A stretch of 64,000 nt of DNA, from positions 3,744,071 through 3,808,070 of the forward strand of contig CP032507.1 in NCBI GenBank assembly GCA_008375315.1, written 5' to 3'. A model generated the notes under the pieces. It saw only the letters and a list, made by a program, of their open reading frames with translations, searched no databases and was not told the origin of the DNA. The stretch is from Ectothiorhodospiraceae bacterium BW-2 (GTDB lineage: Bacteria > Pseudomonadota > Gammaproteobacteria > Thiohalomonadales > Thiohalomonadaceae). The position numbers were made by a program, and so were the translations under genes. Positions 38,629 through 46,584 of the stretch are shown one piece after another (position 1 is the stretch's first letter; every line of letters begins with the position of its first letter).

Positions 38629-39126
38629 ATGCCACATCAATCAAACCTCCTTTTCCGTCACCCCCTTGCCGATGAGGGGCTTATCATCACTAACTTAATA
38701 GCTGCTAACCCGCCGCTCGATAGCAACTCGATCTATAGCTACTACCTACTCTGCCGCCACTTTGCAAATAGCTGCGTTGTGGCCGAGACAGCGGGCGAAA
38801 TCGGAGGTTTTATCTCCGCCTATCCTCTGCCGACTCGACCTAAGACGCTGTTTGTTTGGCAAGTCGTGGTCGCCCCTAACTTAAGGGGACAAAGGATTGC
38901 TCGCCGTATGCTCGACTGGCTACTGCAACAACCAATGTTGCGCCATATTACCCAAATCGAGGCCACAGTTAACCCCAACAATATCGCTTCACGCAAGATA
39001 TTTGAGGGAGTCGCACACGATCAAGGCACCGCTATCGATGAAGAGCTCTTTCTTCCCGCCACCGCCTTTGGCAGCGATGCCTCCCATGAGAGCGAAATTC
39101 TATTACGGGTAACCTTAAAAATCTAA
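38629..39126 (+). CDS. ectA: L-2,4-diaminobutyrate acetyltransferase
   Basis: 165 residues of the GNAT fold. The N-terminal substrate region LDSNSIYSYYLLCRHF is highly specific for EctA; the acetyl-CoA loop is VVVAPNLRGQRIARRML, and NPNNIASRKIFEG follows. It acetylates diaminobutyrate to N-gamma-acetyl-diaminobutyrate, the second step of ectoine synthesis. It starts with a weak Shine-Dalgarno. It is followed after 67 bp by ectB in the same direction. Confidence 0.95.
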   Translation: MPHQSNLLFRHPLADEGLIITNLIAANPPLDSNSIYSYYLLCRHFANSCVVAETAGEIGGFISAYPLPTRPKTLFVWQVVVAPNLRGQRIARRMLDWLLQQPMLRHITQIEATVNPNNIASRKIFEGVAHDQGTAIDEELFLPATAFGSDASHESEILLRVTLKI

Positions 39127-39193
39127 TCAGTTCTATCGTCAGCAGCTCATGCTGGCGCCCTATCCCACTTTTCTAGCAACACAGGAGAATACC

Positions 39194-40477
39194 ATGCGTA
39201 TATTTGAGGAGATGGAGTCTGAAGTTCGCGGCTATGTTCGTGCATTTCCGGCCATATTTGATACCGCCAAAGGGGCGTTTCTCTACGATGAACATGGCAA
39301 CGAATATATCGACTTCTTTGCCGGTGCCGGCACCTTAAATTATGGCCACAATAATCCGCTTATTAGCAGCGCCCTGATCGACTATCTGCAGCGGGACGGC
39401 ATTGTACATGCCCTCGATAAGGCGACGGTCGCCAAAAAGAGTTTTTTGCAGAAGTTTCGCGACACCATTCTCTCCCCGCGCAATCTCGACTACAAAGTGC
39501 AATTCACCGGCCCTACGGGGACGAATGCTGTCGAAACGGCTCTCAAACTGGCCCGAATGGTCAAACGGCGCTCTAATATTATTGCCTTTACCAACGGCTA
39601 TCACGGTCTGACCATGGGGGCGCTGGCGGTCACCGGTAACGATTTTTATCGCGACGAGTCGTATGGTGCCCGCAATAACGCCGACTCAGTCCCCTTCGAT
39701 GGCTATCTAGGCGAGGGGGTCAATACCATCGACTATCTGCGTAAAATTATCGGCGATAGCTCTAGTGGCGTTGATCTACCCGCCGCCATTATCGTCGAGA
39801 CGGTTCAGGGTGAAGGGGGCATTAATGTCGCCTCATTTGAGTGGCTCAAAGAATTAGAGCACCTCTGCCATGAGTTCGATATTCTACTCATTATCGACGA
39901 TATCCAGATGGGTAATGGTCGCACCGGCACCTTCTTCAGCTTTGAGAGAGCCGGCATAAAACCCGATATGGTTACCGTCTCCAAATCGATTGGCGGCGGA
40001 TTGCCGATGGCACTGCTGCTCATGCGACCTGAGCTCGATCAGTGGCAACCCGGTGAACATACCGGCACCTTTCGCGGCAATAATCTGGCCTTTGTTGCCG
40101 CTACCCAAGCGCTGGGCTACTGGGATAATGACGACTTCGCTAACGCTATTGACTATAAAGGCGAGATTATGGAGCAGGAGCTAGGTGCCATTGTCGAAAA
40201 GTATCGCTCCAAACTCGATATCGAACTGCGCGGTCGCGGCATGGTATGGGGGCTCGATATTCACCGTACCGGTTTTGCGAGCGAGGTCTCCCGTGCCGCA
40301 TTTCAAAAAAATCTAGTCATTGAGCTAGCCGGTGCCGATGATAGTGTGGTTAAGTTCCTCCCCGCCTTGATCATTGAAGAGGAGACGCTACGACAAGGCA
40401 TCGCTATTATCGATGAGGTCATCGGTGAGTTACTAGCGCAAAAACAGATCGCCATGACGGGGGATACTGCCGCATGA
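39194..40477 (+). CDS. ectB: Diaminobutyrate-2-oxoglutarate transaminase
   Basis: 427 residues from ATG 39194 (MRIFEEMESEVRGYVRAFP); AGGAG lies 7 nt upstream, so the open-frame start at 39149 is rejected. Class III PLP aminotransferase: TGPTGTNAVETALKLAR, then DDIQMGNGRTGTFFSFE and the PLP lysine in VTVSKSIGGGLPMAL. It converts aspartate semialdehyde and glutamate to diaminobutyrate, the first step. Its stop overlaps ectC (ATGA). No dedicated aspartokinase (ask_ect) follows the operon, so precursor supply comes from general lysine/threonine metabolism. Confidence 0.96.
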   Translation: MRIFEEMESEVRGYVRAFPAIFDTAKGAFLYDEHGNEYIDFFAGAGTLNYGHNNPLISSALIDYLQRDGIVHALDKATVAKKSFLQKFRDTILSPRNLDYKVQFTGPTGTNAVETALKLARMVKRRSNIIAFTNGYHGLTMGALAVTGNDFYRDESYGARNNADSVPFDGYLGEGVNTIDYLRKIIGDSSSGVDLPAAIIVETVQGEGGINVASFEWLKELEHLCHEFDILLIIDDIQMGNGRTGTFFSFERAGIKPDMVTVSKSIGGGLPMALLLMRPELDQWQPGEHTGTFRGNNLAFVAATQALGYWDNDDFANAIDYKGEIMEQELGAIVEKYRSKLDIELRGRGMVWGLDIHRTGFASEVSRAAFQKNLVIELAGADDSVVKFLPALIIEEETLRQGIAIIDEVIGELLAQKQIAMTGDTAA

Positions 40478-40902
40478 TCGTTCGTACACTCGATGACATG
40501 AAGGGCACCGAGCGGGAAGTTCATGCCGATAGCGGTAACTGGGTTAGTCGCCGTTTTGTTATTGATAGCGATCGAGCCGGCTTCTCGTTCCACGAAACTA
40601 TCATTAAAGCGGGCACAAAGACCCCGATTTGGTACAAAAATCACATTGAAGCGGTCTATTGCGTCGCCGGTGATGGAGAGATAGAGGATCTAGCTAGCGG
40701 CGAGATCCACCCCATTCGTGACGGTACCCTCTATCTGCTCAATAATCATGACCGTCACATTCTGCGTGGCGGCAGCGAAGACATGCGGCTCATTTGCGCC
40801 TTTAACCCCCCGGTAACCGGCCACGAAAAACATGATGCTGACGGTGCCTATAGCGCCCATCCGCAACATGAGGCGTGGCAGAAGCTGCGGCGGGGGGCAT
40901 AA
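40474..40902 (+). CDS. ectC: L-ectoine synthase
   Basis: 142 residues, a cupin. MIVRTLDDMKGTEREVHADSG and WYKNHIEAVYCVAGDGEIEDL (bearing metal-site residues), then LYLLNNHDRHILRGG, are signature stretches. It closes the ring of N-gamma-acetyl-diaminobutyrate to give ectoine. A 4-bp overlap with ectB implies translational coupling. ectD (hydroxylase) is not present, so ectoine rather than hydroxyectoine is the expected product. A tRNA promoter begins 15 bp after the stop. Confidence 0.96.
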   Translation: MIVRTLDDMKGTEREVHADSGNWVSRRFVIDSDRAGFSFHETIIKAGTKTPIWYKNHIEAVYCVAGDGEIEDLASGEIHPIRDGTLYLLNNHDRHILRGGSEDMRLICAFNPPVTGHEKHDADGAYSAHPQHEAWQKLRRGA

Positions 40903-40917
40903 AATCAAAAAATAGCC

Positions 40918-40945
40918 TTGACACATTCAGAAAATTATCTATAAT
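40918..40945 (+). promoter_or_regulatory. Consensus sigma70 promoter for the tRNA pair
   Basis: TTGACA (40918-40923), 16 bp, TATAAT (40940-40945): both hexamers are perfect. A GC-rich discriminator (cgccc) follows, as in stringently controlled stable-RNA promoters. tRNA-Ala begins 14 bp downstream of the -10 box. Confidence 0.85.
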
Positions 40946-40958
40946 ACGCCCACCTTTC

Positions 40959-41034
<76 letters not shown>

Positions 41035-41054
41035 AAAAGAGAGGTAACTGTTTA

Positions 41055-41130
41055 GTCCCCATCGTCTAGAGGCCTAGGACATTGCCCTTTCACGGCAGTA
41101 ACAGGGGTTCGACTCCCCTTGGGGACGCCA
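41055..41130 (+). tRNA. tRNA-Glu (TTC)
   Basis: 76 nt with encoded CCA. The acceptor stem GTCCCCA pairs with TGGGGAC, anticodon TTC sits in CCTTTCACG, and the T-arm is AGGGGTTCGACTCCCCT. It is 20 bp after tRNA-Ala and likely on the same transcript. Confidence 0.95.
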
Positions 41131-41139
41131 ATTAAAATC

Positions 41140-41170
41140 AAAGGGTTACGAGTGATCGTGGCCCTTTTTT
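41140..41170 (+). terminator. Intrinsic terminator of the tRNA transcript
   Basis: A 12-bp stem with two G-U pairs (AAAGGGTTACGA/TCGTGGCCCTTT), GTGA tetraloop and a run of six T, 10 bp after tRNA-Glu. It is also close to the end of the convergent yrfG gene. Confidence 0.88.
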
Positions 41171-41203
41171 ATTGGCTGTACACTCATCCTTATAACGGCT
41201 TGA

Positions 41204-41866
41204 CTAGTTCACTAGTTCGGCAAAGCTATCGACACAGAGCCACGGCACCTGACCCGCCTCGCGCTTCGGCTGTTTAGAGTCGGGGGCTAAAATCGCCACT
41301 AAATGGCGAAAACCGTAGTTAAACGCCGCCTGTAGCACCGAGACAGAATCATCAACAAACAGCGTTCTATCGGGATCAAACGGCTCAATCTGTTGCAATC
41401 GGTGCCAGAAGTCGGGATGCTCTTTGGCCACCCCTAAATCGTGGGAGCTAATCGAGGCATCGAGCCAAGTGTGAAGCCGAGTCTGCTCCATCTTTAGCGC
41501 CAAACTCTTTGTGTGGGCATTGGTCACTAAGACGACTCGCCGCGCCGAGCGCTGTTGTGACTCTAAAAAGGGAATCACATGGGGGTGAATTCGAATCAGA
41601 TGGCTCACCTCCCGTTTTAGTAGCGCAATATCGAGCTCAAGCTCCCGACTCCAGTAGTCAACGCAGTACCACTCTAGCTGCCCTTGCAGCGCCTGCGATT
41701 TGGCCATCACATCAGCCGTCGCCTGCGCTAGCGGCAGGTTATGGCGCAAAGCGTACTGTTTAGGCACATAGGTGAGCCAGAAGTAGTTATCGAAATGAAG
41801 ATCGAGCAGCGTCCCATCCATATCGAGAAAAACGGTATCAATCTGCTCCCAAGCTATCGTCGGCAT
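41204..41866 (-). CDS. yrfG: HAD-family GMP/IMP nucleotidase
   Basis: 220 residues. HAD motif I is FLDMDGTLLDLHFDNYFW, which closely matches YrfG; motif II is VLVTNAHTKSL, then the lysine in VAKEHPDFW and motif IV TLFVDDSVSVL. YrfG hydrolyses purine mononucleotides (GMP, IMP). It is divergent from cysQ with a 65-bp gap, a pairing kept in many gammaproteobacteria. Confidence 0.9.
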   Translation of the reverse strand: MPTIAWEQIDTVFLDMDGTLLDLHFDNYFWLTYVPKQYALRHNLPLAQATADVMAKSQALQGQLEWYCVDYWSRELELDIALLKREVSHLIRIHPHVIPFLESQQRSARRVVLVTNAHTKSLALKMEQTRLHTWLDASISSHDLGVAKEHPDFWHRLQQIEPFDPDRTLFVDDSVSVLQAAFNYGFRHLVAILAPDSKQPKREAGQVPWLCVDSFAELVN

Positions 41867-41931
41867 AGGCCTCTCCCCTTAAATGCGCTATGATGAGCGC
41901 TAATGTTACCACAAGCTAAAGAGAGCAGCCG

Positions 41932-42753
41932 ATGTCAAGTATGATCAAACTTGCTGATATCTCCCGTCTGACAGCAGCGGTGATCGAGATCGCACACGAA
42001 GCCGGGCGCACCCTTTTAGAGCTCTACGCCACCGAGCTAAAAGTTGAACAAAAGGCCGATATGACACCCGTTACCGCCGCCGATCTTGCCGCCCACCGCC
42101 TCATTCAACAGCGACTACAGCAGCTCACCCCCGCTATTCCGGTCTTAAGTGAGGAGTCGGCAACTATCCCCTTTAGTGAACGGCAGCAGTGGCGCTGCTA
42201 TTGGCTGGTTGACCCCTTAGATGGCACCCGCGAATTTATCGACCATACGGGGGAGTTTACCGTTAATATCGCCCTCATTTGCGACCAAATGCCAAAATTG
42301 GGGGTAATCTATGCGCCAGTGGTGGAGAGCTACTACTACGCCTGTGAGGGGGAAGGGGCGTGGAAACGGGAGGCGACACGCCCCCCTAAAACGATTAGGG
42401 TGCGCCAGTGGCAGGGGGGCAGAGTCGTGCTCGCCTGTGGCCGCTCCCGCTACAGCGCTGCTTTAAAAAGGCTGCTACAGCGCCTACCGGAGTATGAGAT
42501 TCTCACTCTCGGCAGTGCGCTAAAATCGTGCGCTGTCGCCGAAGGGGTAGCCGATATCTACGCCCGCTTCGGCCCGACCTCGGAGTGGGATACTGCCGCG
42601 GCGCAGATTATTCTGCGAGAGGCGGGCGGCCACTTGACCGATACCACCTTAACGCCGCTACGCTATAACTGCCGTGAGGAGCTGCTCAACCCCCACTTTA
42701 TCGCCTTCGGTGGCGGTGAGGCGCTGCGCCACTACCTGCTGCCCTCCCCCTAA
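41932..42753 (+). CDS. cysQ: 3'(2'),5'-bisphosphate nucleotidase
   Basis: 273 residues of the inositol monophosphatase fold. Metal-site motifs: SEESA (the first acidic cluster), DPLDGTREFIDHTGEFTVNIAL and EWDTAAAQIILREAGG. It removes the 3'-phosphate from PAP, the by-product of PAPS use in sulfate assimilation, and PAPS-using sulfotransferases or ACP holo-synthases also make PAP. It could recycle the PAP made when carrier proteins such as those of the megasynthase are activated (inference). Confidence 0.92.
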   Translation: MSSMIKLADISRLTAAVIEIAHEAGRTLLELYATELKVEQKADMTPVTAADLAAHRLIQQRLQQLTPAIPVLSEESATIPFSERQQWRCYWLVDPLDGTREFIDHTGEFTVNIALICDQMPKLGVIYAPVVESYYYACEGEGAWKREATRPPKTIRVRQWQGGRVVLACGRSRYSAALKRLLQRLPEYEILTLGSALKSCAVAEGVADIYARFGPTSEWDTAAAQIILREAGGHLTDTTLTPLRYNCREELLNPHFIAFGGGEALRHYLLPSP

Positions 42754-42759
42754 TGCGCC

Positions 42760-44541
42760 CTATAACCCCTGCTGTTGCAGCCAGAGCTCCGGCAGCGCTA
42801 AATGCCACAGTTGACTCCCCTGCAGACGGGTGAAGTGTTGGTCTGGCTCTAAGAGTAGCTTATCGACATAGCGTCGCTGATAGAGCCCCCGCTGACGACA
42901 CGCCTGACTATTTAAAATATCGCCCATAAAGTCGAGAAACTCCCCGCGCACATATTTGAGCGCCGGCATCGGAAAGTAGCCCTTTTGACGATCAATCACC
43001 GCCGCCGGTAGTAGCGGCCGAGCAATCTCTTTTAGGGCATATTTGGCTTCATCCCCTTTCGGGCCGAGTTTTAACGCTGGCGGTGCCTGCATCACCTGCT
43101 CAATTAGGTGGTGATCCAAAAACGGTACCCGCGCCTCTAACCCCCACGCCATGGTCATATTATCGACCCGTTTGACCGGATCATCGACAATCAGTGTTGT
43201 CACATCGAGCCGCAATATCTGATCGAGCCAACTGTCGGCACCCGGCTGTTGCAGTAACGCCTCAATGGTGGCGGCGGTAACATCGCCGCTTATCCACTCT
43301 GGCTGCAACATCTGCACCATGTCAGCATGATCTCTATCAAAATAGAACGGCGCAAAGCGCTCTAATGGGCTCCCCTCCGCCGCCACCATCTGTGAGTACC
43401 AGAAGTAGCCCCCAAAGAGCTCATCGGCTCCTTGACCACTCTGTACTACCTTCACGGTTTGTGAGACCTGTTCGGCTAGCAGATAGAAGGCGACTGCGTC
43501 CTGTCCGACCATCGGCTCGGCCATTTGGGTGACCGCCTCTGGCAGCCGCTGTAGCACCTGCTCATTGGCAATAATAATTTTATGGTGCTGACTCTGATAG
43601 CGTTCGACCACCTGATCGGAGTACTCAAACTCACTCCCCCTCTCTTCGGGTTGATCTTCAAAACCGATGGAGAAGGTGTGCAGATCACTCACCCCCTGAT
43701 CGGCTAGCAGAGCGACTAAGAGACTCGAATCAAGCCCACCTGAGAGCAGTACCCCAACCGGTACATCGGCAATCTTTAGCCGCTTTTTTACCGCCTGCTG
43801 TAGCTGCTGCTTGATCCTCTCTAACCACTGAGCTTCTGATAACGGCGTCGCGGGCCGCTCTGCGGTCAGACTCCAGTAGCGGTTGAGCTGTGCCTCGCCT
43901 CGATAGTTAATCAGCAGGGTGTGGGCGGGGGGGAGTTTATGGATGCCGGCCAAAATGGTATCGGGTGCCGGCACCACCGCGTGCAGGGTAAAGTGGTGGT
44001 GCAGAGCAATAGGGTTGAGCGTGGTGTCGATCCCCCCCGTCGCGAGTAGCGCCTGAGTGTTAGAGGCGAACAGAAAGCGCTGCGGGGTGTGGCTATAATA
44101 GAGCGGTTTAATGCCAATTCGATCTCGCGCCAAAAAGAGCCTCTGCTGACGACTATCCCAAATTGCAAAGGCAAACATGCCATCTAACCGAGCCACCGCC
44201 GCCTCGCCCCACTCGGCGTAGGCTTTTAAGATGACCTCGCTATCGCCATGGGAGCGGAAGGTGTGCCCCTTAGCGATGAGCTGCTGCCGCAGTTCGGGGT
44301 AGTTGTAGATCGTGCCGTTAAAGACCAGCGTCAGGCCGGTCTCGCTATCGACCATCGGCTGCGCCGCAGCGTCAGAGAGATCGATAATCGCCAGACGGCG
44401 ATGACCTAAGGCGATCTGCCCCTGCTGCCACTGCCCACCGCCATCCGGCCCACGACGCTGTAGCTGCTGCAACATTCGCGCCACGGTTTGGGGTTGGGGC
44501 TTTTGGCCATCAAAACGGAACTCACCGGCTATTCCACACAT
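42760..44541 (-). CDS. Asparagine-synthase-type amidotransferase of the N-acetylglutaminylglutamine amide (AsnO/TIGR03104) class
   Basis: 593 residues from ATG 44541 (MCGIAGEF), which puts nucleophile Cys2 at the N-terminus; AGGTGG lies 5 nt upstream, so the longer open frame to 44604 is rejected. A class II glutaminase domain (RRGPDGGG, FNGTIYNY, HGDSEVILKAY) precedes a synthetase domain with the PP-loop VLLSGGLDSSLL and AVAFYLLAEQ. HHHFTLHAVVPAPDTIL is the stretch that marks the NAGGN amidotransferase branch rather than AsnB. That enzyme amidates the osmoprotectant dipeptide NAGGN, normally beside a GNAT-ligase and a peptidase; both are absent here. It starts 11 bp after the coiled-coil gene, in the same direction. 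Confidence 0.8.
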   Translation of the reverse strand: MCGIAGEFRFDGQKPQPQTVARMLQQLQRRGPDGGGQWQQGQIALGHRRLAIIDLSDAAAQPMVDSETGLTLVFNGTIYNYPELRQQLIAKGHTFRSHGDSEVILKAYAEWGEAAVARLDGMFAFAIWDSRQQRLFLARDRIGIKPLYYSHTPQRFLFASNTQALLATGGIDTTLNPIALHHHFTLHAVVPAPDTILAGIHKLPPAHTLLINYRGEAQLNRYWSLTAERPATPLSEAQWLERIKQQLQQAVKKRLKIADVPVGVLLSGGLDSSLLVALLADQGVSDLHTFSIGFEDQPEERGSEFEYSDQVVERYQSQHHKIIIANEQVLQRLPEAVTQMAEPMVGQDAVAFYLLAEQVSQTVKVVQSGQGADELFGGYFWYSQMVAAEGSPLERFAPFYFDRDHADMVQMLQPEWISGDVTAATIEALLQQPGADSWLDQILRLDVTTLIVDDPVKRVDNMTMAWGLEARVPFLDHHLIEQVMQAPPALKLGPKGDEAKYALKEIARPLLPAAVIDRQKGYFPMPALKYVRGEFLDFMGDILNSQACRQRGLYQRRYVDKLLLEPDQHFTRLQGSQLWHLALPELWLQQQGL

Positions 44542-44552
44542 TATGCCACCTG

Positions 44553-45467
44553 CTATTGATAGTAGTAGTCGTAACGACTGAGCACCTTTTGGGTAAACTC
44601 CCACGCCTCGTTGTAAGAGAGGCCGCTATTATCGGGAATAATCACCTTAATGTAGAGCTGATTATGGTGCTGTTGCTGTAGCTGCTGCAATTTTTGATGC
44701 AGTTCGGGCAGCGACAGTTGGGTATAACCCGCCTCCCCCGGTAGATGGTACTCGATAATTTTAGCCCCTGCCTCCACTCGATAGCGCACATCGACCACAT
44801 ATTTGCCCTGCGCGGTACGGGCCGGACGCACCAACTTGTCATACTCTACTTTGAGCTGCTCATACTGTCCCTGTACTAGTGAGAGCCGCTGATCACTACT
44901 GCGGCTAAGTCGCTTTAGCGTCTCATAATCGACAACCTGCTGCTGGTAGTTCTGTTGCAGACTCTCTAGCCGCTGCTGCTCTGTTTGAAGTAGCTGTTCG
45001 AGCTGCTGTTTCACCTCGCGGGTCTGTTGTAGCTGCTGTTGGCTCTCGCGAGCTAGCTGACTCTGCTGCGAGAGATCGCCACGCAGTCGCTGGAGCTGCC
45101 CATTTAGATCGGTTAGCTGCTTATCTTGATCTTGCAACATTTGGGTCATCAGCTCATTGGCCTCCTCCCGCTGCATCAGTTTCATTCTTAGTTCGGAGAC
45201 TTGGTACTGGGTCTGCGATAGCTGCTCTTCGAGTGTGGCGTTGGTTTCGGTCGCTACTTCAGCGAGACGGCTAGCGAGCTGTTCTGCCTCCATGGTGCTA
45301 CTGAGCTCCTTTACCAGCTCAAAGTTACGCAGCACTAGCACTGTACTGGCCAGCATAAAGATCATCACCACCACCATCATAATGTCGGTAAACGATGGCC
45401 AGAAGCTGCCGGCACCGTGGTCACTGCTGCTATCGTGGCGCAGATCGACAAAGCCCCCTCTTAACAT
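44553..45467 (-). CDS. MotB/ExbD-like protein with long coiled coil
   Basis: 304 residues. A short cytoplasmic N-terminus and one membrane helix (about 24-46) carry PSFTDIMMVVVMIFML: Asp28 is placed like the proton-carrying Asp of MotB, ExbD, TolR and ZorB. Residues about 50-215 are a continuous Gln/Glu/Leu-rich coiled coil that would reach far into the periplasm, followed by a small C-terminal domain (about 220-304). No OmpA-like peptidoglycan-binding motif is seen, so it is neither classic MotB nor ZorB. It overlaps the channel gene upstream by 7 bp. Function unknown; partnership with the channel is a strong inference. Confidence 0.75.
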   Translation of the reverse strand: MLRGGFVDLRHDSSSDHGAGSFWPSFTDIMMVVVMIFMLASTVLVLRNFELVKELSSTMEAEQLASRLAEVATETNATLEEQLSQTQYQVSELRMKLMQREEANELMTQMLQDQDKQLTDLNGQLQRLRGDLSQQSQLARESQQQLQQTREVKQQLEQLLQTEQQRLESLQQNYQQQVVDYETLKRLSRSSDQRLSLVQGQYEQLKVEYDKLVRPARTAQGKYVVDVRYRVEAGAKIIEYHLPGEAGYTQLSLPELHQKLQQLQQQHHNQLYIKVIIPDNSGLSYNEAWEFTQKVLSRYDYYYQ

Positions 45468-46420
45468 GATGGCCGATCGCCCCGTTTTAGTGCCTCCAGA
45501 TCGCTCTCAGAGAGGCGAAAACCGAGCTGTAGCAGGCGGGTAATGCGCTCCATCTCACCGGCAACGGGAGCGAGCTGCTGCCGAAAGCCATCGACTGCCT
45601 GATAGAGCTCTCTTCCTGCTGCTGCATACTCCTGCTGGCTACTCTGCATAGTGATCACAATGTTGTGCAGTTGACGCACCAATCCCCCGACTTCGGCAAT
45701 CACCGACTGCTCGCTGTGGCTATAGCGGGGCAGAAGATAGACCGAGGTCACCTCCTCCACTCGACTCAATAGATGGGTCTGGGCATCGGTCAATTTCAGA
45801 TAGAAGTAGCCGAAAAAGACATAGCTAATAATGGCAGTAATGGTGGTCGATAGTGCGGTGGACATACCGTGAATCACCATCCCCATATTGCCAAATATCT
45901 CTTTATTTTCTAGCAGATTAGATGCCCCAACCAAGGCGATAGAGAGGGAGACGATGGTGCCAAACACGCCGCTTAAAATCAGAATATTGTGGACAAATTT
46001 TGGCAGTGAGATACGAGTACTCTCACTCGCTAGCAGCATCGAGGCGAGCGCCGCCTGATCGATAGGTACGCTACGCTGGTTCATCTTCTTAACCATCTCG
46101 TAGCGCTGACAGATGATCCGCTTCGGCGACAGATCGTCAGTCGGCTGAGACTCACCGGCATCAATGGCACTCACAAACTGAGCCAGTGCCCCCTCCTCAG
46201 CCTGATAGCGTAATAAAATCAGAAACAGCTTCACCATTCCTAGCCCAAATAGCGCCAAAATGGCACCATTAATTAACAAGCCGGTGGTGGTGAGTTGATC
46301 TTCCCAATAGATCGCCCGCAGCTCAATCGCGCCATAGACGACCAGCCCCCCGACTAGCAAGGTAAGAATGACAAATCGAATCAAAATCGATCGGCTATAG
46401 TTTTTGCCATAACTGCCCAT
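45461..46420 (-). CDS. MotA/TolQ/ExbB-type channel protein
   Basis: 319 residues with four predicted helices: about 12-34, 47-69, 142-166 and 184-208. The pair LSGVFGTIVSLSIALVG and GMSTALSTTITAIISYVFFG matches helices 3 and 4 of MotA/ExbB-type stators, including the small-residue Thr-rich stretch lining the ion path. A cytoplasmic loop (70-140) and a C-terminal helical tail (about 210-319) are present; the tail is shorter than in ZorA. With the next gene it should make a 5:2-type ion-driven complex (family knowledge). No flagellar, Ton/Tol or Zorya helicase genes are near. Confidence 0.8.
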   Translation of the reverse strand: MGSYGKNYSRSILIRFVILTLLVGGLVVYGAIELRAIYWEDQLTTTGLLINGAILALFGLGMVKLFLILLRYQAEEGALAQFVSAIDAGESQPTDDLSPKRIICQRYEMVKKMNQRSVPIDQAALASMLLASESTRISLPKFVHNILILSGVFGTIVSLSIALVGASNLLENKEIFGNMGMVIHGMSTALSTTITAIISYVFFGYFYLKLTDAQTHLLSRVEEVTSVYLLPRYSHSEQSVIAEVGGLVRQLHNIVITMQSSQQEYAAAGRELYQAVDGFRQQLAPVAGEMERITRLLQLGFRLSESDLEALKRGDRPSC

Positions 46421-46584
46421 AGAGTAAAGCTCCTACAGAGAAAAATGTGGTTGAAAGTGTAGCACAACTCGCTCGCCATCGTCGTTGCAATATGGCCCCC
46501 ACCCGCCCCTCTTCGGCCATTGGATTAATTCCCCGCTTCAGGCTACCATAGCCCCCTTATAGCGACATAGACAGGAGCCTCCCC

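Follow-up and report, generated by a model that had tools for sequence, protein, structure and literature searches.

The gene pair and its surroundings

Within the window (the whole 64,000-nucleotide stretch of DNA that was analysed), two genes, here termed A and B, overlap by 7 bp (Table 1). Both open reading frames lie where the preliminary description had placed them, on the minus strand, which that description had not mentioned, and they are not chance frames, since 150 non-identical homologous A genes are each accompanied by a same-strand B. The gene after B, which starts 11 nt beyond it, encodes an N-acetylglutaminylglutamine (NAGGN) amidotransferase (TIGR03104, E 8e-281); its first-pass open reading frame began too early, and the ATG at 44541 agrees with the start of the profile. 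This gene and ectA, ectB, and ectC (38629-40902) are osmolyte genes close to the pair (38629-44541), an association that is absent from the neighborhoods of relatives (150 loci) and is particular to the window genome. Scans for promoters and terminators returned fewer sites than were found in shuffled sequences. In this window the pair is, as originally described, free of adjoining Tol/Ton, flagellar, gliding, or Zorya genes.

Table 1. Features of the A/B locus, in window coordinates.
Feature	Position	Strand	Remarks
Shine-Dalgarno-like TAGGAG, 9 bp 5' of the ATG of A	46430..46435	-	read from sequence
A: MotA/TolQ/ExbB-type channel subunit, four membrane helices plus cytoplasmic helical tail	45461..46420	-	319 aa
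A residues 141-210, helices 3 and 4 (channel pair)	45791..46000	-	alignment to TolQ/ExbB
A channel threonines	T155 45956-45958, T193 45842-45844	-	invariant in 150 homologues
A residues 300-303, GFRL motif, end of cytoplasmic tail	45512..45523	-	98-100% conserved, 150 homologues
B: axle, rod, and end domain	44553..45467	-	304 aa
B residues 6-10, F-x-D-L-R motif, cytoplasmic	45438..45452	-	92-97% conserved, 147 homologues
B residues 22-48, membrane axle helix with ion-site Asp28 (45384-45386)	45324..45404	-	ZorB-like by profile
B residues 49-212, proline-free heptad coiled coil, in phase with axle	44832..45323	-	structure model and heptad analyses
B residues 213-304, TolR-like end domain	44556..44831	-	predicted model; found only in B subunits

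A was detected in 57 of 369 sampled gammaproteobacterial genomes, or about one in seven (E <1e-10, two of them weak), and also in two families outside the Gammaproteobacteria but within the same phylum (28 of 398 sampled genomes, including the window's own). A single-sequence scan of genome contigs for relatives found none; an alignment-based scan of contigs found 333, and the carriers among the best 80 of these 333 loci include Sedimenticola, Candidatus Thiodiazotropha, tubeworm and Solemya symbionts, Chromatiales, and Methylococcales. B adjoins A wherever checked: a same-strand B is present at all 150 non-identical A loci and is directly adjacent in 147, the remaining three being cases in which the chosen open frames overlap.

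A constant third gene, which the preliminary description had hoped would name an effector, did not emerge, as no neighbor family is constant over the 150 loci. The commonest two families (37 and 34 loci) lie on the opposite strand and are confined to groups of related genomes, and the gene of 970 residues that follows B in several relatives, considered as a third component, proved to be glnE. At L082 and about 20 related loci, in Sedimenticola/Thiodiazotropha-type genomes, genes that by eye resemble those for Slp-family lipoproteins lie downstream of B on the same strand, near a tsaB-like gene; these probably reflect old synteny, and a lipoprotein partner is conceivable in that lineage. The window genome also has a complete tolQRA, an exbBD pair, and two separate motAB sets, which makes A/B the fifth motor of its kind in this organism.

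The channel subunit, the axle, and the rod

The upstream protein, A, had been described as having two stator-type helices. The last two helices indeed form the channel pair, although A has four membrane helices in all, at about residues 8-37, 43-74, 141-170, and 177-210; the first three are backed by hydropathy, and the polar fourth is taken from the structure model. The AlphaFold2 model (13-sequence alignment, mean pLDDT 76) places helices at 8-41, 45-87, 138-171, and 177-233, followed by a tail at 237-301. Its closest structural matches are ExbB (Z 13.3 over 207 residues, 3.8 Å), TolQ (12-13), ZorA (11.5), and PomA/MotA (at most 10.3). Helical proteins may attain such Z values through a common arrangement of helices, but the top 23 rows of the search all belong to the MotA/TolQ/ExbB superfamily. 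The Pfam family PF01618 scores 19.2 bits against A from the window, under its cut-off of 22.9, and matches 12 of 13 A-family members, with two homologues above the curated cut-off. Additionally, the A profile scores 40 against that of TolQ/ExbB (reversed control 20.6) in an alignment that spans both channel helices, and in which T155 and T193 of A fall on T145 and T178 of TolQ, residues that form a polar ring beside D23 of TolR (PMC12583513). By the PF01618 match and the channel helix pair with its conserved threonines, A belongs to the MotA/TolQ/ExbB channel superfamily; it looks like a divergent channel subunit of this type, at the edge of the family by sequence.

A phylogeny of 56 sequences over 94 channel-region columns separated A, together with two further kinds of A subunit (PRK09039-type and VWA-type, discussed below) and ZorA, from TolQ/ExbB/MotA with a support of 0.999, in a tree whose internal order is uncertain and whose ZorA branches are long. 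Several other observations were set aside: profile matches of A to spike-like and designed coiled coils are coiled-coil noise, Pfam matches to SHP, STING, and Pax2 were taken as chance, and apparent N-terminal fusions of A at L071 and L089 (783 and 804 aa) look, by inspection, like upstream open frames that were read through rather than domains. The near-invariant cytoplasmic motifs, GFRL in A and F-x-D-L-R in B, suggest either contacts inside the complex or an unlinked partner in the cytoplasm.

In the downstream protein, B, the helix reported to bear Asp28 is well supported, as this residue is invariant (147/147). Judged by sequence, Asp28 with T155 and T193 of A is equivalent to the ion site formed by TolR D23 and TolQ T145/T178. 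The coiled coil of about 165 residues was likewise borne out: in the AlphaFold2 model of B (mean pLDDT 83), a single uninterrupted helix runs from residue 26 to 212 (pLDDT >90 over most of it) and is followed by an alpha/beta domain at 223-301, and the rod has a sharp period of 3.5, with a heptad-period power of 2.21 that was reached in none of 2000 shuffles (shuffle mean 0.21). Profile matches of B to tropomyosin, PI3K, and similar proteins are coiled-coil noise.

Proline is absent from all 146 measurable rods, and in these homologues the distance from Asp28 to P215 of the end domain ranges from 173 to 572 residues. The 23 distinct distances are all 5 or 2 modulo 7 and form two classes separated by half a heptad (Rayleigh 0.91 at period 3.5; nominal p ~5e-9, which takes the distinct lengths as independent, whereas related sequences are only partly so). 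Such quantisation was not seen in the N-tail or end domain of B, the tail of A, or TolR/ExbD (0.17-0.36). As only the axle-to-rod segment is phase-locked among the segments tested, axle and rod are read as one continuous coiled coil. The correlation of A and B distances (0.69) may reflect shared ancestry and was set aside as evidence.

The register of this coiled coil follows that of the flagellar motor, in which the ion-site Asp of the MotB axle lies at position b (derived from PMC10659934). Laid over the whole rod without any fitting, the MotB register places hydrophobic residues at a in 67% of cases and at d in 51%, compared with at most 16% at every other position, and a and d lead in every third of the rod. 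Two conserved pairs, Asn48 with Leu51 immediately beyond the membrane and Tyr209 with Leu212 immediately ahead of the end domain, each occupy an a and then a d position, so that axle, rod, and neck read as one hinge-free coiled coil. An Asn residue at position a is characteristic of coiled coils that form parallel dimers. Heptad phase is expected for any uninterrupted coiled coil and is by itself no proof that torque is carried.

At 0.15 nm per residue, the rod encoded here (about 165 residues) measures roughly 24 nm and could reach the cell wall or outer membrane. Among relatives, no rod is shorter than 152 residues, and the longest reach 551 residues (about 82 nm), far beyond the width of a normal periplasm; such rods cannot stand straight, and bending or lying along the wall must therefore be allowed. 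Long B subunits occur at L105 7936-10041 (701 aa), L103 7959-9812 (617 aa), and L095 7933-9468 (511 aa).

The end domain had been called new, small, and not of the OmpA type. It is not OmpA, but its predicted fold is not new: of 994 PDB chains aligned to it, the two that rank highest are periplasmic domains of TolR, namely 5by4 (Z 8.3 over 87 residues, 2.9 Å) and 2jwk (Z 8.1 over all 74 residues, 2.3 Å), modestly above the next unrelated folds (Z 6.7). By sequence, the end-domain profile scores 15.0 against TolR and 15.6 against the reversed control, and PF02472 (ExbD/TolR) gives no gathering-level match to B, its best hits being E 0.14 at full length (five of 13 B proteins matched weakly) and E 0.0074 in one of 18 end domains. 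Because the sequence evidence is weak, the domain is termed TolR-like in its predicted fold, and homology is left aside. Searched for in other proteins, as had been proposed, it gave one match per genome and only in pair-bearing genomes (24 of 185).

Proposed mechanism and alternative readings

We consider it probable (roughly 0.6) that A and B form an ion-driven 5:2 motor of the inner membrane, with a rigid shaft that acts on the cell wall or outer membrane. A pentamer of A would surround a dimer of B (A5B2), and protons or sodium ions, reaching Asp28 of B by a path through A that is lined with threonines, would make A rotate with respect to B. From the membrane, the B dimer would emerge as a continuous parallel coiled coil without plug, hinge, or flexible linker, the rod serving as a rigid extension of the motor axle, and the TolR-like domain at its end may dock on the wall or on an outer-membrane partner. 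The rod might anchor the motor far out, with A turning something in the cytoplasm, or it might carry torque or pull to the outer envelope. Envelope maintenance is our guess at the physiological role. The preliminary description had envisaged a rotary or force-transmitting device across the periplasm; the heptad phase strengthens the idea of a rod, while a straight spanning strut is not the whole story in every species, given the 551-residue rods, and rotation, ion flow, and force transmission are what we infer.

The best placed of the alternatives, although we regard it as improbable, is that A/B is a TolQR/ExbBD variant that energises a TonB- or TolA-like protein encoded elsewhere, the rod only positioning the TolR-like domain. 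It would account for a channel model closest to ExbB and TolQ, for the predicted end-domain fold, and for the weak ExbD matches noted above. It sits poorly with a genome that already has a complete tolQRA and an exbBD pair, with neighborhoods that hold no constant TonB- or TolA-like gene, with the short, flexible linkers of TolR and ExbD, which have no phase-locked rod, and with the position of A apart from TolQ/ExbB in the tree.

Less likely still is a defence sensor akin to Zorya, in which phage entry at the wall or outer membrane would be sensed by the rod and signalled by A to an effector encoded elsewhere. ZorAB has been modelled as a wall-tethered sensor motor (PMC11890865), the B axle matches ZorB best, and in the tree A falls on the side of ZorA; against this, no Zorya effector or convincing defence system lies beside the pair (PADLOC matches of the window neighbors are to generic domains), and elsewhere the neighbors are housekeeping genes such as glnE, with no constant effector. 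Equally unlikely is a non-rotating device, either a mechanosensitive or turgor-gated ion channel with the rod as its gate or a passive strut, a reading in keeping with the lack of an adjoining load or effector gene and with the osmolyte genes around the pair here, but opposed by the restriction of those neighbors to the window genome and by an invariant Asp/Thr site that is that of 5:2 motors.

Comparison with known systems

The pair had been put forward as an undescribed one of MotA/ExbB type with a long periplasmic rod, a proposal to be given up on a clear match to a known system. No specific Tol, Exb, Mot, Agl/Gld, or Zor model matched, so that outcome did not occur. Additionally, no description of the A/B pair, or of PRK09039-type pairs as motors, was found in a literature search that left preprints and most subscription journals outside its scope. 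Recent surveys report non-flagellar family members with varied appendages (PMC12505986; PMC9389320).

Flagellar MotAB/PomAB shares with A/B a four-helix A subunit, an axle with the ion-site Asp, and the axle register, but B has no OmpA match or plug, A has no MotA-level match (including to the MotA equivalog model) and a lower structural match, and no flagellar genes lie beside the pair. The features common to A/B and TolQR/ExbBD are the channel fold, the Thr/Thr/Asp ion site, and the periplasmic TolR/ExbD fold, which is present in the predicted B model; A/B differs in its long rod, in having four rather than three A membrane helices, in falling under the model cut-offs, and in having no TolA or TonB gene beside it, or as a constant neighbor in 150 loci. 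The likeness to GldLM, which also has a B-type subunit with a long periplasmic shaft, is analogy only: the 18 nm shaft of GldM (PMC9389320) consists of four folded domains. Neither GldL nor GldM appears among the structural matches listed, which carries no weight either way. For the rod-length rule, the arms of SMC proteins, in which length rules apply to a coiled coil presumed to be force-transmitting (PMC5344682), are a logical precedent only, as these are unrelated ATPases.

Zorya ZorAB resembles A/B in the axle helix, which matches ZorB best, and in the position of A in the tree. Its models matched over the axle and channel stretches only (ZorB E 3e-4, ZorA E 0.03) rather than at full length, and no ZorC/D/E effector was matched among eight nearby window genes. 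In Zorya, the long tail is on the cytoplasmic side of ZorA and ZorB ends in a Pal/OmpA-like domain (PMC11890865), and effector genes are present; A/B has none.

The nearest relatives of A that were found are the A subunits of the uncharacterised PRK09039-type pairs (profile E 1e-13). Their B subunits share the W-P-x-x-x-D axle and, in a small sample of ten proteins with six distinct lengths, a rod that lacks proline and is quantised in length, and B of the window likewise combines the axle with a proline-free, phase-locked rod; the PRK09039-type rod ends in an OmpA-like wall-binding domain, and that of B in a TolR-like domain. The model NF006544 (PRK09039-like) scores 23.7 bits against B, under a cut-off of 362 and over residues 21-161 only, a stretch without an OmpA end. 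PRK09039-type pairs occur at L118 3372-5592 and at L285-L293, with the rod protein beside an A-type channel subunit; these proteins carry the NCBIfam name 'peptidoglycan-binding protein' and deserve study as motors. A further arrangement, VWA-type pairs, is found at L031 8594-10406, L032 6733-8572, L033 8493-10270, and L035 6020-7786, where an A-type channel subunit is followed by a B whose end domain, judged by eye, resembles a VWA domain bearing the metal-site motif DxSGS; these are possibly another undescribed 5:2-type system.

The known 5:2 motors differ mainly in their parts beyond the membrane. The flexible linkers of Mot, Tol, and Ton make it difficult to ask there whether torque can pass outward through the B dimer, and the A/B family offers a natural test, as the length of its rod has changed more than threefold in evolution and the heptad register was never lost. 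A rod that must be rigid should accept the insertion of 7 residues but not of 1-3. A broader, more tentative idea, which we hold to be possible but doubtful, is that of a 'shaft-drive' branch of the 5:2 motors, in which the axle continues as a rigid, phase-locked rod that would convey rotation or force outward over tens of nanometres, and one and the same core bears exchangeable heads, TolR-like or OmpA-like; Mot, Tol, and Ton would differ from it in the flexible linker or plug between motor and wall domain. If the motor reading is true, A/B would join the Tol, Ton, flagellar, gliding, and Zorya systems as a further energy-using machine of the envelope, widespread and uncharacterised. Fitting the full definition of no named family, A/B resembles a 5:2 motor in its anatomy, and in it a predicted Tol-like end-domain fold is joined to a motor core of the rod and Zorya side.
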